DNA of 64,000 bases. Source: Catellatospora sp. TT07R-123 (GTDB lineage: Bacteria > Actinomycetota > Actinomycetes > Mycobacteriales > Micromonosporaceae). The DNA lies in the NCBI RefSeq assembly GCF_018327705.1, contig NZ_BNEM01000001.1, positions 2,232,001-2,296,000 of the forward strand, in the 5' to 3' direction. Positions 12,114-17,664 of the stretch are shown piece by piece; the stretch's first letter is position 1; every line of letters starts with the position of its first letter. The translations under genes and the position numbers were made by a program. The notes under the pieces are model-generated. The model saw nothing but the letters and a program-made list of their open reading frames with translations. It had not been told where the DNA came from and ran no database searches.

Positions 12114-13706
12114 ATGCCCGCGTACGAACACACCGACGTCGTCATCGTCGGCGGCGGCCCGACCGGGCTGCTGCTCGCCGCCGAGCTGCGCCGGGGCGGC
12201 GTCGGCGCGGTCGTACTGGAACGCCGCGCCGCCCCGGACGACCTGCCCCGCGCCAACGGCCTGGTCGGCCAGGTGGTGCGGGTCCTCGACCAGCGCGGCC
12301 TGCACGCCGCGCTCGCCGGGCACTCCCGCGGCCCGTCCGGGCTGCTGCGCCGGGTCGGCACCGGCAACCTGGGCCGTCCCCGCCCGATCCGCGCCTTCGG
12401 CTACGCGGGCTTCCGGCTGCCGCTGCACCTGCTGCCCGGCAACCCGCTGCATGTGCTGCCGGTGCCGCAGCGCCACCTGGAACAGGTCTTCCAGGGCGAG
12501 GCGCTGCGGCTGGGCGCCGAACTGCGGCGCGAGCACGAGCTGGTCTCGTTCGTGGCCGACGCCGACGGGGTCGACGTGGAGGTGCGCGGCCCCGGCGGCA
12601 CGTACCGGCTGCGGGCGGCGTACCTGGTGGGCTGCGACGGGGCGCACAGCGCCGTACGCAAGGCCGCCGGGATCGCGTTCCCGGGGCTGACCAGCCGGGA
12701 CTCGGTCAGCCGCGACGGCCACGCGGTGCTGGCGCCGGGCACTCTCACCCGCTCCGGGGCGCTGCGCCGGCCCGGCGGCGAGCCGCTGCGCCCGTTCGAG
12801 CTGCACCGGCTGCCGGGCGGGGTGTTCACGTTCGCCTCGTTCCGGCCCGGGGTGCACCTGGTCCACGTGACCGAGTGGGACCAGCCCGACCCCGGCGAGG
12901 ACGTCCCGATGAGCCTGGCCGAGCTGCGCGCGGCGGTGCTCCGGGTGCTCGGGCACGACCTGCCGCTGCGGGCGCCCGACGGACCCGGGCCGCACGTGCT
13001 GCGGCGGCTGACCGCGCGCAACTCGCGGGTGGCGCAGCCGTTCCGCAGCGGGCGCGTGTTCGTGGCGGGCGACGCCGCCCACGTCGTGGCCGGGTTCGGC
13101 GGGCCGGGGCTCAACCTGGCCCTGCAGGACGCCGTCAACCTGGGCTGGAAGCTCGCCGCGGCGGTGCGCGGCGACGCCCCCGCCGGGCTGCTCGACACCT
13201 ACGACGCCGAGCGCGCGCCGCAGGCGCTGCGGATGCTGGAGCACGTACGGGCACAGGCGGCCCTGATCGCGCCCGGCGACGAGGTGACGGCGCGGCGGGC
13301 GGAGTTCGCGGCGCGGCTGACCGAACCGGCGGTGCTGGCGCGGCTGGCGGCGACGATGGCGGGCAGCGACGTGCCGTACCAGGATGATCCCGCCGATCCC
13401 CGGATCGGCCGGCTCGTGCCCGACCTGCGGGTGCGCGTCGGCGGCCGCCGCACCCGGATGGGCGAGCTGCTGCGCACCGGCCGGGCGCTGCTGCTGGACG
13501 CCACCGGCCGCGCCGACGGCCAGGCCCCCGCCCGCCTGGCGGCGCCCTGGTCAGCGCGGGTCGACGCGGTCACCGCCACCGCGGCCACCCCGGAGGCCCT
13601 CCTCGTCCGCCCCGACGGATACGTCGCCTGGACCAGCGCCTCGGCGACTCCCCTGTCGGCGGTCCTGGCCCACTGGTTCGGCCCGCCCGCCCCCACTTCG
13701 CCGTAG
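12114..13706 (+). CDS. FAD-dependent aromatic monooxygenase (PHBH family)
   Basis: A 530-residue flavoprotein hydroxylase. The Rossmann motif VIVGGGPTGLLLAAEL starts near residue 10, the NAD(P)H/FAD 'DG' motif is GCDGAHSAVRKAAG near 175, and the second FAD motif is FVAGDAAHVVAGFGGPGLN near 310. The C-terminal 110 residues form the thioredoxin-like extension seen in larger members such as the PgaE/RdmE and phenol or rifampicin hydroxylase group. ATG 12114 has a good ribosome site (GAGGGAG). It probably hydroxylates a phenolic or polyketide-like compound with NAD(P)H and O2. Two palindromic operators upstream suggest induction by a ligand. It may act in detoxification or catabolism; there are no biosynthetic genes nearby. 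Confidence 0.9.
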   Translation: MPAYEHTDVVIVGGGPTGLLLAAELRRGGVGAVVLERRAAPDDLPRANGLVGQVVRVLDQRGLHAALAGHSRGPSGLLRRVGTGNLGRPRPIRAFGYAGFRLPLHLLPGNPLHVLPVPQRHLEQVFQGEALRLGAELRREHELVSFVADADGVDVEVRGPGGTYRLRAAYLVGCDGAHSAVRKAAGIAFPGLTSRDSVSRDGHAVLAPGTLTRSGALRRPGGEPLRPFELHRLPGGVFTFASFRPGVHLVHVTEWDQPDPGEDVPMSLAELRAAVLRVLGHDLPLRAPDGPGPHVLRRLTARNSRVAQPFRSGRVFVAGDAAHVVAGFGGPGLNLALQDAVNLGWKLAAAVRGDAPAGLLDTYDAERAPQALRMLEHVRAQAALIAPGDEVTARRAEFAARLTEPAVLARLAATMAGSDVPYQDDPADPRIGRLVPDLRVRVGGRRTRMGELLRTGRALLLDATGRADGQAPARLAAPWSARVDAVTATAATPEALLVRPDGYVAWTSASATPLSAVLAHWFGPPAPTSP

Positions 13707-13715
13707 CCGCCCGCT

Positions 13716-13788
13716 TTTCATAAACGTTGGCCTATCTCATCGAGTAATTCGAGATCATCTTCGATGAGATAGGCCAACGTTTATGAAA
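13716..13788. terminator. long AT-rich perfect palindrome between convergent genes
   Basis: Two 28-base arms, 13716-13743 and 13761-13788, are perfectly complementary and flank a 17-base spacer. The arms begin TTTCATAAACGTTGG and are far more AT-rich than the surrounding DNA. It starts ten bases after the monooxygenase stop and lies 76 bases from the end of the convergent ATPase gene, so a bidirectional terminator is the simplest role. Confidence 0.6.
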
Positions 13789-13863: not shown

Positions 13864-14838
13864 TCAGGCCAGTGAGCGCAGGTGGGTGTAGATCGCGTCC
13901 GGGGTGAGGATGCCGAGCACGGCCGCGCCGTCGCGGACGGCGACCCACCCGGTGTCGGCCTCCAGGATCGCGGCGAGCGCGTCGCGCAGGCTGGCCGAGG
14001 CGTCGACCGCGGGAGCCCCGGCGGGCGCGTCGGCGGGCAGCGGCGCCAGCCCGGTACGCGGCACCGGTGTCACCGCGAGCAGCTTGATCCCCCGGTCGCC
14101 GCCGACGAACGCGGCGACGAAGTCGTTGGCCGGGCGTGACAGCAGCGTGGCCGGATCGGCGAACTGCTCCAGGTGCCCGCCCTCGGACAGCACCGCGATC
14201 CGGTCACCCAGGCGCACCGCCTCGTCCACGTCGTGGGTCACGAACACGATCGTCTTGCGTACGGTCTGCTGCAACCGCAGGAACTCGTCCTGCAACCGGC
14301 CCCGCACGATCGGATCGACGGCCGAGAACGGCTCGTCCATGAGCAGCACCACCGGGTCGGCGGCCAGGGCACGGGCCACCCCGACGCGCTGGCGCTGGCC
14401 GCCGGACAGCTCGTGCGGGTAGCGGGCGGCGTACTGCGGGGCGGGCAGGCCGACGAGGTCCAGCAGCTCGTCGACGCGCGCGGCGGTGCGGGCCTTGGGC
14501 CAGCCGAGCAGGCGCGGCACGGTGGCGACGTTGTCGCGCACGGTGTGGTGCGGGAACAGGCCCACGTTCTGGATCACGTAGCCGATGCGGCGGCGCAGCT
14601 CGATCGGGTCGACCGCGGTGATCTCGTCGTCGCCGAGCCACATCCGGCCGCCGGACGGCTCGATCAACCGGTTGATCATGCGGAGCAGGGTGGACTTGCC
14701 GCAGCCGGACGGGCCGACGAGCACGCTGAGCTGTCCGGCGGGCAGTTCCAGGCTGAGCTCGCGCACGGCCACGGTGCCGTCGCCGTACTGCTTGCGGACT
14801 CCGTCCAGCCGGATCGAGACCGCGGCGGTACCGTTCAT
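13864..14838 (-). CDS. osmoprotectant ABC transporter ATP-binding protein (OpuCA/ProV-like)
   Basis: A 324-residue ABC ATPase: Walker A VGPSGCGKSTLLR, Q-loop in YVIQNVGLFPHHTV, signature LSGGQRQRVGVARAL, Walker B VVLLMDEPFSAVDP, and switch His in VFVTHDVDEA. The C-terminal 70 residues hold one CBS-like module (DTGWVAVRDGAAVLGILTPDAIY), as in OpuCA/ProV proteins that sense ionic strength or a nucleotide. The start is ATG 14838 with GGAGGG upstream. It is divergent from the two permease genes, whose first ATG lies only three bases away. Together with the permeases and binding protein it should import glycine betaine, choline or a similar compatible solute. Confidence 0.92.
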   Translation of the reverse strand: MNGTAAVSIRLDGVRKQYGDGTVAVRELSLELPAGQLSVLVGPSGCGKSTLLRMINRLIEPSGGRMWLGDDEITAVDPIELRRRIGYVIQNVGLFPHHTVRDNVATVPRLLGWPKARTAARVDELLDLVGLPAPQYAARYPHELSGGQRQRVGVARALAADPVVLLMDEPFSAVDPIVRGRLQDEFLRLQQTVRKTIVFVTHDVDEAVRLGDRIAVLSEGGHLEQFADPATLLSRPANDFVAAFVGGDRGIKLLAVTPVPRTGLAPLPADAPAGAPAVDASASLRDALAAILEADTGWVAVRDGAAVLGILTPDAIYTHLRSLA

Positions 14839-14841
14839 CCC

Positions 14842-15552
14842 ATGCCCTCCAAGGTCAGCGCGATCGTGTCCGCCTGGGCCGCCTACGATCCGGACGTCGA
14901 CAATCCCTGGTTCTCCTGGGACTACCTGCGCCAGAACACCGGCACGCTGCTGGCCGCGCTGCGCGAACACCTCCTGCTGACCTTAGCCGCCGTCGCCGTC
15001 GCCGCGGTGCTCGCGATCCCGCTGGCGGTGCTGGCCCACCGCATCGGCTCGCTGACCGGCCCGATCCTGGGCGTGACCGGGGTGCTGTACACGATCCCGT
15101 CGCTGGCGCTGTTCGCGATGCTGGCGCCGTTCACGGGCCTGCGGCCGGTCACGGTCCTGATCGGACTGGTGCTGTACGCGCTGCTGACCATCGTGCGCAA
15201 CACGCTGACCGGCCTGCGCCAGGTGCCCGCCGAGGTCGTCGACAGCGCCCGCGGCATGGGCTACGGTCCCGCCGCGCTGCTGTGGCGCATCGAGCTGCCG
15301 CTGGCGCTGCCCGGCGTCATGACCGGCCTGCGCATCGCGACCGTGTCCACGGTGGCGCTGGTCACCGTCGGCGAGCTGGTCGGCTTCGGCGGCCTGGGCA
15401 ACCTCATCATCGGCGGCTTCAACAGCAACTTCTACCGCGCCCAGATCATGGCGGCCACGCTGGCCTGCATCGGCCTGGCGCTGGCCCTCGACCTGGCCCT
15501 GGTGCTGCTGAGCCGCGCCGTCATGCCCTGGCACCGCCGGAGGACAGCGTGA
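14842..15552 (+). CDS. osmoprotectant ABC transporter permease (OpuCB/ProW-like), first subunit
   Basis: A 236-residue inner-membrane permease with about six helices from residue 40 and the ABC coupling loop RQVPAEVVDSARGMGYGPAALLWRIELPLALP (EAA-type, split here by its conserved G). The first ATG at 14842 leaves three bases to the divergent ATPase start; GTG 14866 is an alternative in-frame start. It contains a TTA leucine codon at 14983-14985, which is rare in such GC-rich genes. The stop overlaps the next permease GTG (GTGA). Works with the partner permease as a heterodimer. Confidence 0.9.
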   Translation: MPSKVSAIVSAWAAYDPDVDNPWFSWDYLRQNTGTLLAALREHLLLTLAAVAVAAVLAIPLAVLAHRIGSLTGPILGVTGVLYTIPSLALFAMLAPFTGLRPVTVLIGLVLYALLTIVRNTLTGLRQVPAEVVDSARGMGYGPAALLWRIELPLALPGVMTGLRIATVSTVALVTVGELVGFGGLGNLIIGGFNSNFYRAQIMAATLACIGLALALDLALVLLSRAVMPWHRRRTA

Positions 15553-16659: not shown

Positions 16660-17664
16660 ATGTACTCACATACTCGAAAGCTGTCCGCCCTGGCGCTGGC
16701 GGGCGTCGCGGCGGCGGCGTTCACGCTCGCGGCCTGCGGCGACGCGGGCTCCTCGGGCACGACCGCGCCGCAGAGCGCCTCGGGCGCCGGCTGCGCGCCG
16801 GTCGCCGGGACGGCCCTGGTGATGCTGGCGGACGACAAGCACCTACAGAACGCCGACAACGTGATCGCGGTCGCCAACGCCAAGGCGGCCACCCCCGCCC
16901 TGATCGCGGCGGTCGACAAGGTCGGCGCGGCCCTGGACACGCCCAAGCTGGTGGCGCTGAACCGGGCCGTCGACGTCGACCGCAAGACCGCACAGGTCGC
17001 GGCGGCCGACTTCGCCACCACGGCCGGGCTGGCCAGTGGCCTGTCCGGCGGCAGCGGCAAGGTGGTCGTGGGCGCGGCGAACTTCCCGGAGAGCCAGATC
17101 CTGGCCGAGCTCTACAAGATCGCCCTTAACGCCGCGGGCTTCACCGCGACCGTGCAGGTGGCGGGCAACCGCGAGCTGTACGAGGCGGCCCTGGAGCGCG
17201 GCGAGCTGACCGTCTTCCCCGAGTACGCCGCGACGCTGACGGAGTTCCTGAACCAGAAGCAGAACGGCAAGGAGGCCCAGCCCAAGGCCAGCGGTGACGT
17301 GACCGCGACGGTGACCGCGCTGAAGGGCCTGGCCGAGAAGGCGGGCCTGGCCGTCGGTACCCCGTCGGCCGCGACCGACCAGAACGCGTTCGCGGTGACC
17401 AAGGCGTTCGCCGACGCCAACGGCGTGAAGACGCTGTCGGAGTTCGCGACCAAGTGCAGCGGCAAGGCGTCGGTGCTGGCCGGTCCGGCCGAGTGCCCGG
17501 CCCGCCCGTTCTGCCAGCAGGGCCTCAAGACGGTCTACGGCATCGACTTCGGCTCGTTCTTCCAGGCCGACGCGGGCGGCCCGCAGACGAAGACCGCGCT
17601 GACCACGGGCAAGGCGAGCCTCGGCACCGTCTTCTCCTCGGACAGCGCCTTCGCCGCCAGCTGA
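16660..17664 (+). CDS. osmoprotectant-binding lipoprotein with permuted OpuAC domain
   Basis: A 334-residue lipoprotein: signal peptide with lipobox LAAC (Cys26), then an OpuAC/ProX-type binding domain in an unusual order. Residues about 53-125 (ADDKHLQNADNVIAV to FATTAGL) match what is normally the C-terminal end of this family. A Gly/Ser linker (about 126-134) follows, and residues 135-334 (VVVGAANFPESQILAELY to LGTVFSSDSAFAAS) match the usual N-terminal and middle part, ending exactly where the displaced segment would begin. The fold is therefore probably intact but circularly permuted. ATG 16660 has a GGAAGG site. It should deliver betaine-like solutes to the permease pair encoded upstream. 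Confidence 0.9.
   Translation: MYSHTRKLSALALAGVAAAAFTLAACGDAGSSGTTAPQSASGAGCAPVAGTALVMLADDKHLQNADNVIAVANAKAATPALIAAVDKVGAALDTPKLVALNRAVDVDRKTAQVAAADFATTAGLASGLSGGSGKVVVGAANFPESQILAELYKIALNAAGFTATVQVAGNRELYEAALERGELTVFPEYAATLTEFLNQKQNGKEAQPKASGDVTATVTALKGLAEKAGLAVGTPSAATDQNAFAVTKAFADANGVKTLSEFATKCSGKASVLAGPAECPARPFCQQGLKTVYGIDFGSFFQADAGGPQTKTALTTGKASLGTVFSSDSAFAAS

Follow-up and report, generated by a model that had tools for sequence, protein, structure and literature searches.

The gene analysed here lies in a 64,000-nucleotide stretch of the Catellatospora sp. TT07R-123 genome (called the window throughout) and encodes a binding protein whose chain is circularly permuted: the segment that closes the chain in proteins of the ProX/OpuBC class stands ahead of the usual N-terminal start. 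This permutation is real and confirms the observation from which the analysis set out. The fuller reading, in which a lipid-anchored substrate-binding protein (SBP) of a ProX/OpuBC-related ABC importer was permuted by the mechanism described below, is given a probability of roughly 68%. The parts of the gene, its product and the neighbouring transporter genes are listed in Table 1.

Table 1. Parts of the permuted SBP gene and of its transporter operon, in window coordinates
Feature	Position	Strand	Basis or remark
PF04069 (OpuAC-domain) circularly permuted substrate-binding lipoprotein, 334 aa	16660..17664	+	Sequence and Pfam
Signal peptide and lipobox LAAC, residues 1-26	16660..16737	+	Cys26 is the predicted lipid anchor
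Tether, residues 27-44	16738..16791	+	AlphaFold2 model
Cys45, putative partner of Cys266	16792..16794	+	Cysteine counts across relatives
Strand 53-55, predicted last D2 strand, now N-terminal	16816..16824	+	Model secondary structure, EgtUC boundaries, alignments
Hinge linker 2, about residues 56-67, DDK motif	16825..16860	+	Equivalent to EgtUC 433-444
Lobe D1, canonical C-terminal portion, about residues 68-126	16861..17037	+	Pfam and ProX alignments, model
Junction linker LSGGSG, residues 127-132, old C-terminus to old N-terminus	17038..17055	+	
Lobe D1, canonical N-terminal portion, residues 133-232	17056..17355	+	Pfam, model, EgtUC alignment
Hinge linker 1, about residues 233-241	17356..17382	+	Equivalent to EgtUC 332-340
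Remainder of lobe D2, residues 242-334	17383..17661	+	Chain end precedes the place of strand 53-55
Cys266, closing the helix ahead of D2 strand 268-275	17455..17457	+	Alignment, model
Cys279 and Cys285 pair	17494..17514	+	Present too in several canonical relatives
Transporter ABC ATPase, PF00005, divergent	13864..14838	-	
Permease 1, PF00528	14842..15552	+	
Permease 2, PF00528	15549..16268	+	

Segment order and rotation

A PF04069 search of the own genome placed profile positions 187-255 on window positions 16813-17016 and profile positions 2-185 on 17059-17658, which reverses the usual order (itself no formal Pfam criterion); both stretches exceeded the curated cut-off of 21.2 bits, with 109.9 bits in two pieces, and the domain was matched by 25 of 25 aligned relatives. 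In a PDB sequence search, A. fulgidus ProX 4-169 aligned to residues 131-302, and ProX 201-273 aligned to residues 53-124, the latter being weak when taken alone (i-Evalue 0.86). The sequence was then rotated by placing residues 131-334 ahead of residues 45-130. After this rotation, the two reversed Pfam matches fused into a single stretch (2-255 of 257 profile positions, 124.3 bits), and ProX gave a single alignment over 5-273, the full-length collinear match being obtained only in the rotated order.

The original prediction had described a circular permutation with the canonical C-terminal segment at residues 53-125, a chain that stops where this segment would begin, and a Gly/Ser linker between the old termini, and it had proposed alignment in both orders, structure prediction and a search for homologues in the same order as checks. 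The alignments above bear out the permutation and the position of the segment, and the model and the homologue search, reported below, are in agreement with it. The stop codon directly follows residue 334, and no further PF04069 segment was found near the gene in the own-genome PF04069 search. The predicted linker is present at the junction (Table 1), which measures 6-8 residues in 122 of 123 permuted rows and 11 in the remaining one.

Distribution of the permuted form

Matches at E<=1e-3 were found in 51 of 61 own and related genomes, and 35 of the 61 gave a single alignment along almost the full length of the permuted protein (own genome; same genus, 10/10; same family, 21/26; same order, 3/24). 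All 30 loci examined from this search were permuted, as were 80 of the best 80 of 572 named relatives, of which 79 are Micromonosporaceae by record title and one is an unplaced actinobacterial MAG. Class-wide sampling of 296 genomes gave 66 with a match at E<=1e-40, and a full-length permuted match was found in 12 of the 296, distributed over four family codes; 18 loci with partial matches taken from this search (L125-L142) were all canonical, one of them truncated. A phylum-wide sample of 296 genomes, searched at E<=1e-60, returned two genomes, the own one and one of its own family, and showed no permuted form outside the class.

After merging 36 repeats and setting aside the truncated row L146, the distinct permuted proteins numbered 109. 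An assembly or gene-calling artefact is refuted by this number, since the same order recurs in many independent genomes, and by crude dN/dS ratios, which stayed below 1 against all five relatives compared (the two nearest gave 0.12 and 0.13, and the remaining three 0.30-0.41); chance is excluded by the 109 proteins as well. The other PF04069 matches of the own genome are taurine/sulfonate-like and molybdate-binding proteins, so that the permuted protein is the only one of its class found there. Two near-full-length matches in the permuted order, sharing 75% and 72% identity with the protein of the window, were observed on one contig of another genome of the family (G019, contig C3).

Phylogeny and operon layout

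For phylogenetic analysis, 58 proteins were all rotated to one order. This set comprised 12 permuted rows of the own family, selected from over 100, together with those rows numbered L116 and upwards in which both segments were present; fifteen loci, either repeats or truncated, were left out of this selection and of the four-cysteine count given below. In the midpoint-rooted tree, in which L158 and L159 form long branches, all 24 permuted rows fell into one clade (support 100/98), and a single origin of the present permuted form is well supported. A fusion of pieces from two different binding proteins, as opposed to the permutation of one, is highly improbable, because the pieces, once rotated, form a complete domain that is matched in one stretch, and because a single, well supported clade came out when the joined pieces were used for the tree.

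In a tree built from the ATPase and both permeases (30 loci, without canonical L149 and L158), the 22 permuted rows again grouped together, with weaker support (80/87), and 7 canonical rows stood on the opposite side (94/89). The layout of divergent ATPase, permease, permease and SBP was seen in 22 of 22 permuted loci and in 7 of 9 canonical loci examined, a comparison that drew on 13 loci of the best 80 relatives; the canonical loci lacking the full layout were L149, which is truncated at the end of its contig, and L158, which lies in a different neighbourhood. On the simplest reading, the SBP was permuted within an already standing transporter operon. Family code f23 holds permuted genes (G067, G087, G102) beside canonical ones (G116, G129), which means that transfer or loss has occurred and the history is blurred. 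Two genomes considered as carrying tandem-gene intermediates (G065 and G085) were rejected, as their genes proved on inspection to be ordinary canonical ones, and no fused tandem intermediate was seen among the loci examined.

Predicted fold and position of the lipid anchor

The AlphaFold2 model was confident (pLDDT 90.9, pTM 0.83), with lower values in the last residues (pLDDT 79) and in the tether (39), residues 26-36 falling below 50. The pieces matched the expected fold, model residues 107-309 of the mature protein matching EgtUC 234-428. PMC9732360 assigns EgtUC residues 233-331 and 445-506 to lobe D1 and 341-432 to lobe D2, with a two-strand hinge. These boundaries were transferred at 26% identity, and the two lobes and two hinge strands of the present protein (type II, subcluster F-III) are read by this transfer together with the strand list of the model.

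Read in this way, the model puts the cut inside lobe D2, ahead of its last strand, with both hinge strands predicted to be kept and lobe D1 to be made contiguous. The predicted lipid anchor is shifted from D1 to D2, in agreement with the original prediction that the anchor had moved. The segment at residues 53-125, correctly described as N-terminal, needs one refinement, as strand 53-55 belongs to lobe D2 by comparison with EgtUC. A cut that removes one hinge strand, with a disulfide in its place, was also considered and dropped, because the EgtUC boundaries keep both hinge strands.

Cysteines and proposed mechanism

All 25 aligned relatives kept the anchor residue Cys26 and each of the four further cysteines, Cys45, Cys266, Cys279 and Cys285. 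Cys45 and Cys266 were present in 109/109 distinct permuted proteins, in 0/34 canonical proteins and in 0/9 differently permuted proteins. The domain body contained exactly four cysteines in each of 123 permuted rows, and Cys45 stood 8 residues ahead of residue 53 in 123 of 123. From this exclusivity, parity and position we infer a disulfide between Cys45 and Cys266 by which the new N-terminal strand would be stapled onto D2. Since the permuted form is one clade, the cysteines and the permutation coincide once only, and it is their retention, rather than repeated gain, that serves as evidence.

In the proposed mechanism, the ancestral gene was probably duplicated in tandem and then trimmed, the old termini would have been joined via a short Gly-containing linker, and the new termini would have arisen within D2, at a point that follows its fourth strand (321-325) and precedes its last strand (53-55). 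D1 would thus become one contiguous insert in D2, with both hinge strands surviving, and the lipid tether would enter D2, and no longer D1, right next to hinge strand 2. The Cys45-Cys266 disulfide would fasten the short D2 strand at the N-terminus to the core of D2, and the pull of the tether would then be taken up by the lobe and kept from the hinge. Lobe closure and the capture of ligand are expected to resemble those of other type II binding proteins.

A second permutation and known permuted relatives

A different permuted order, with profile positions 114-256 followed by 2-141, was found in genome G052 and six other genomes of family code f2, and in two further genomes with other family codes (loci L145:4026-4997(-), L164-L170, L176 and L177). 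Three genomes with the genus code of G052 (G363, G365 and G366) showed the canonical order, with 55-63% identity over the pieces; the canonical loci under this genus code are L171, L174 and L175. The second form accounted for 2 changes on the 58-row tree and may have arisen once or more than once. In L145 (genome G052), the sole second-form locus examined, the ATPase lies on the same strand, unlike in the present operon. In the VIA alignment, model residues 20-239 matched OpuAC 63-272, which implies that Bacillus OpuAC has the second order, opening with the half of D2 found at the C-terminal end of the present protein. The second actinobacterial form (P0002) thus has the apparent OpuAC-type order; the present protein does not, as it starts at the last D2 strand and not at the second half of D2.

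The glycine betaine-binding proteins 2b4l, 1r9l and 1sw1 were described in 2008 as mutual circular permutants, and B. subtilis OpuAC (2b4l, 3chg) as circularly permuted relative to AfProX (PMC2395249). Given that published case and the second form, the present order is, as far as we can tell, a third topology within a family known to permute. It is neither the first permuted binding protein nor the first in its family; its topology is distinct, is old and occurs widely within one class, and it has its own structural marker and close relatives in two other orders. The present form was unreported in the literature searched for permuted osmoprotectant- or solute-binding proteins (titles and abstract starts, non-exhaustive), which includes work on Tp0684 and CPSARST, and the accessible sections of PMC2861598 make no mention of permutation.

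With the ProX/OpuBC/EgtUC/OsmF type II proteins (PF04069; AfProX 1sw1, EgtUC 7txk), the present protein has the domain in common, and its fold matches theirs; identity is 26% over some 190 aligned residues, several ligand residues are conserved, and the ABC transporter genes are related. It differs from them in its permuted chain, in the predicted anchor in D2, in the extra Cys45 and Cys266, and in the replacement of Lys13 and 2 of 4 cage tyrosines. B. subtilis OpuAC is cut at another place in D2 and has a Trp-based pocket (PMC9732360). Treponema Tp0684 (MglB-2), proposed to be a 'Type Ic' permuted glucose-binding lipoprotein by authors who suggest anchoring as a cause of its permutation (PMC4990184), is likewise a lipid-tethered binding protein that was circularly permuted in nature, but it has a Type I fold, belongs to another family and gains a fourth crossover by its cut, whereas the crossover number of the present protein seems unchanged.

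The permutation could be real and nonetheless neutral, that is, an accident of tandem duplication that kept the fold, with an inconsequential move of the anchor and with cysteines that only restore lost stability. We consider this unlikely, while giving it appreciable weight: operon layout and partner genes are alike in canonical and permuted systems, and circular permutants mostly keep their function (PMC2395249), yet the two permutations of this class and Bacillus OpuAC all appear to put the N-terminus in D2, which chance cuts would not necessarily produce, the cases being few and two of them, the second form and OpuAC, being read from alignments. A wider version of the preferred mechanism, held tentatively and at somewhat under even odds, is that the family has been cut open repeatedly, each time with the N-terminus, and hence the anchor, placed in D2, and that in the present case the disulfide replaces the broken continuity of D2 and allows the tether to be re-sited by the hinge without loosening it.

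If true, this would turn the family into a model for asking why binding proteins on a tether undergo permutation. Both orders are alive in the same operon slot, which offers material for studying how a permutation happens and what its effects are, and canonical, permuted and differently permuted relatives are similar enough to be aligned and placed in one tree, the partner genes providing an internal control. Annotators should be aware that the usual C-terminal quarter stands at the N-terminus, so that the best domain stretch resembles a truncated family member.

Ligand pocket

Residues of ProX that we take to line the pocket were mapped by alignment: Tyr63, Thr66, Asp109 and Arg149 are kept as Tyr189, Thr192, Asp240 and Arg282; Lys13, Tyr111 and Tyr214 are replaced by Ala140, Asn242 and Asp66; and Tyr190 stands opposite Phe325 in the rotated alignment. 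Two of the four positions of the aromatic cage are thus aromatic (Tyr189, Phe325) and two are polar (Asn242, Asp66), and with this incomplete cage the protein was not classed as a quaternary-amine binder. The equivalent ligand residues of EgtUC, with four cage aromatics, are given in PMC9732360. Some canonical actinobacterial relatives have, as judged by eye, similar polar residues at these positions, and the change therefore seems older than the permutation. The OsmF model NF049931 scored 51.3 bits, or 58.4 after rotation, against an equivalog cut-off of 400. Of the name originally proposed, osmoprotectant-binding lipoprotein, the relation to the ProX/OpuBC class and the lipobox stand; the sequence does not secure an osmoprotectant role, and the substrate is best left unnamed.

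RNA element upstream of the SBP gene in relatives

An element of about 60 nt, in which two covarying stems flank an internal loop (RGACACGCG ... CGGGACACRGAAGGC), was observed just ahead of the SBP start in both permuted and canonical loci, for example at L157:3895-3955(+), L156:3933-3989(+), L143:4749-4801(-) and L041:5934-5991(+). A pattern for the loop gave 89 sequences, of which 45 were kept and 34 of these entered the alignment; conservation of the loop is therefore partly by construction, the stems being unaffected. Pairing was seen in 87.4% of cells. Changes on both sides were found in 59 cells, compared with 22.4 in shuffles (0/500) and 13-22 when slid, and 9 pairs carried such changes, compared with 6.9 in shuffles (9/500); RNAalifold alone gave 10 pairs, 3 of them changed on both sides.

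The RNA model found one copy each in 16 of 60 genomes, 7 of the 16 being from the training set. Fifteen copies lay directly upstream of the gene for the present SBP on the same strand, and the remaining one lay at a contig end without that gene. Among 20 sources tried, five gave clear matches; none was found in the window, in six Catellatospora loci or in eight others, L084 giving a weak one. No Rfam match at gathering score was obtained in 12 loci, and no known RNA family at gathering score near the SBP gene. The element looks like a cis-regulatory leader RNA, and is possibly a riboswitch for the transported solute.

Other features of the transporter locus

The best NCBIfam match of the ATPase was proV, at 306.2 bits, below the cut-off of 326.6. 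The start codons of the divergent ATPase and permease 1, as placed here, are 3 bases apart (window 14838-14842), so that promoters would lie within coding sequence, or transcripts would be nearly leaderless. A perfect inverted repeat with 28-nt arms and a 17-nt spacer, AT-rich relative to the window, lies at window positions 13716-13788, between an ORF ending at 13706 and the ATPase gene, whose end is at 13864, and would be accounted for by a bidirectional terminator.
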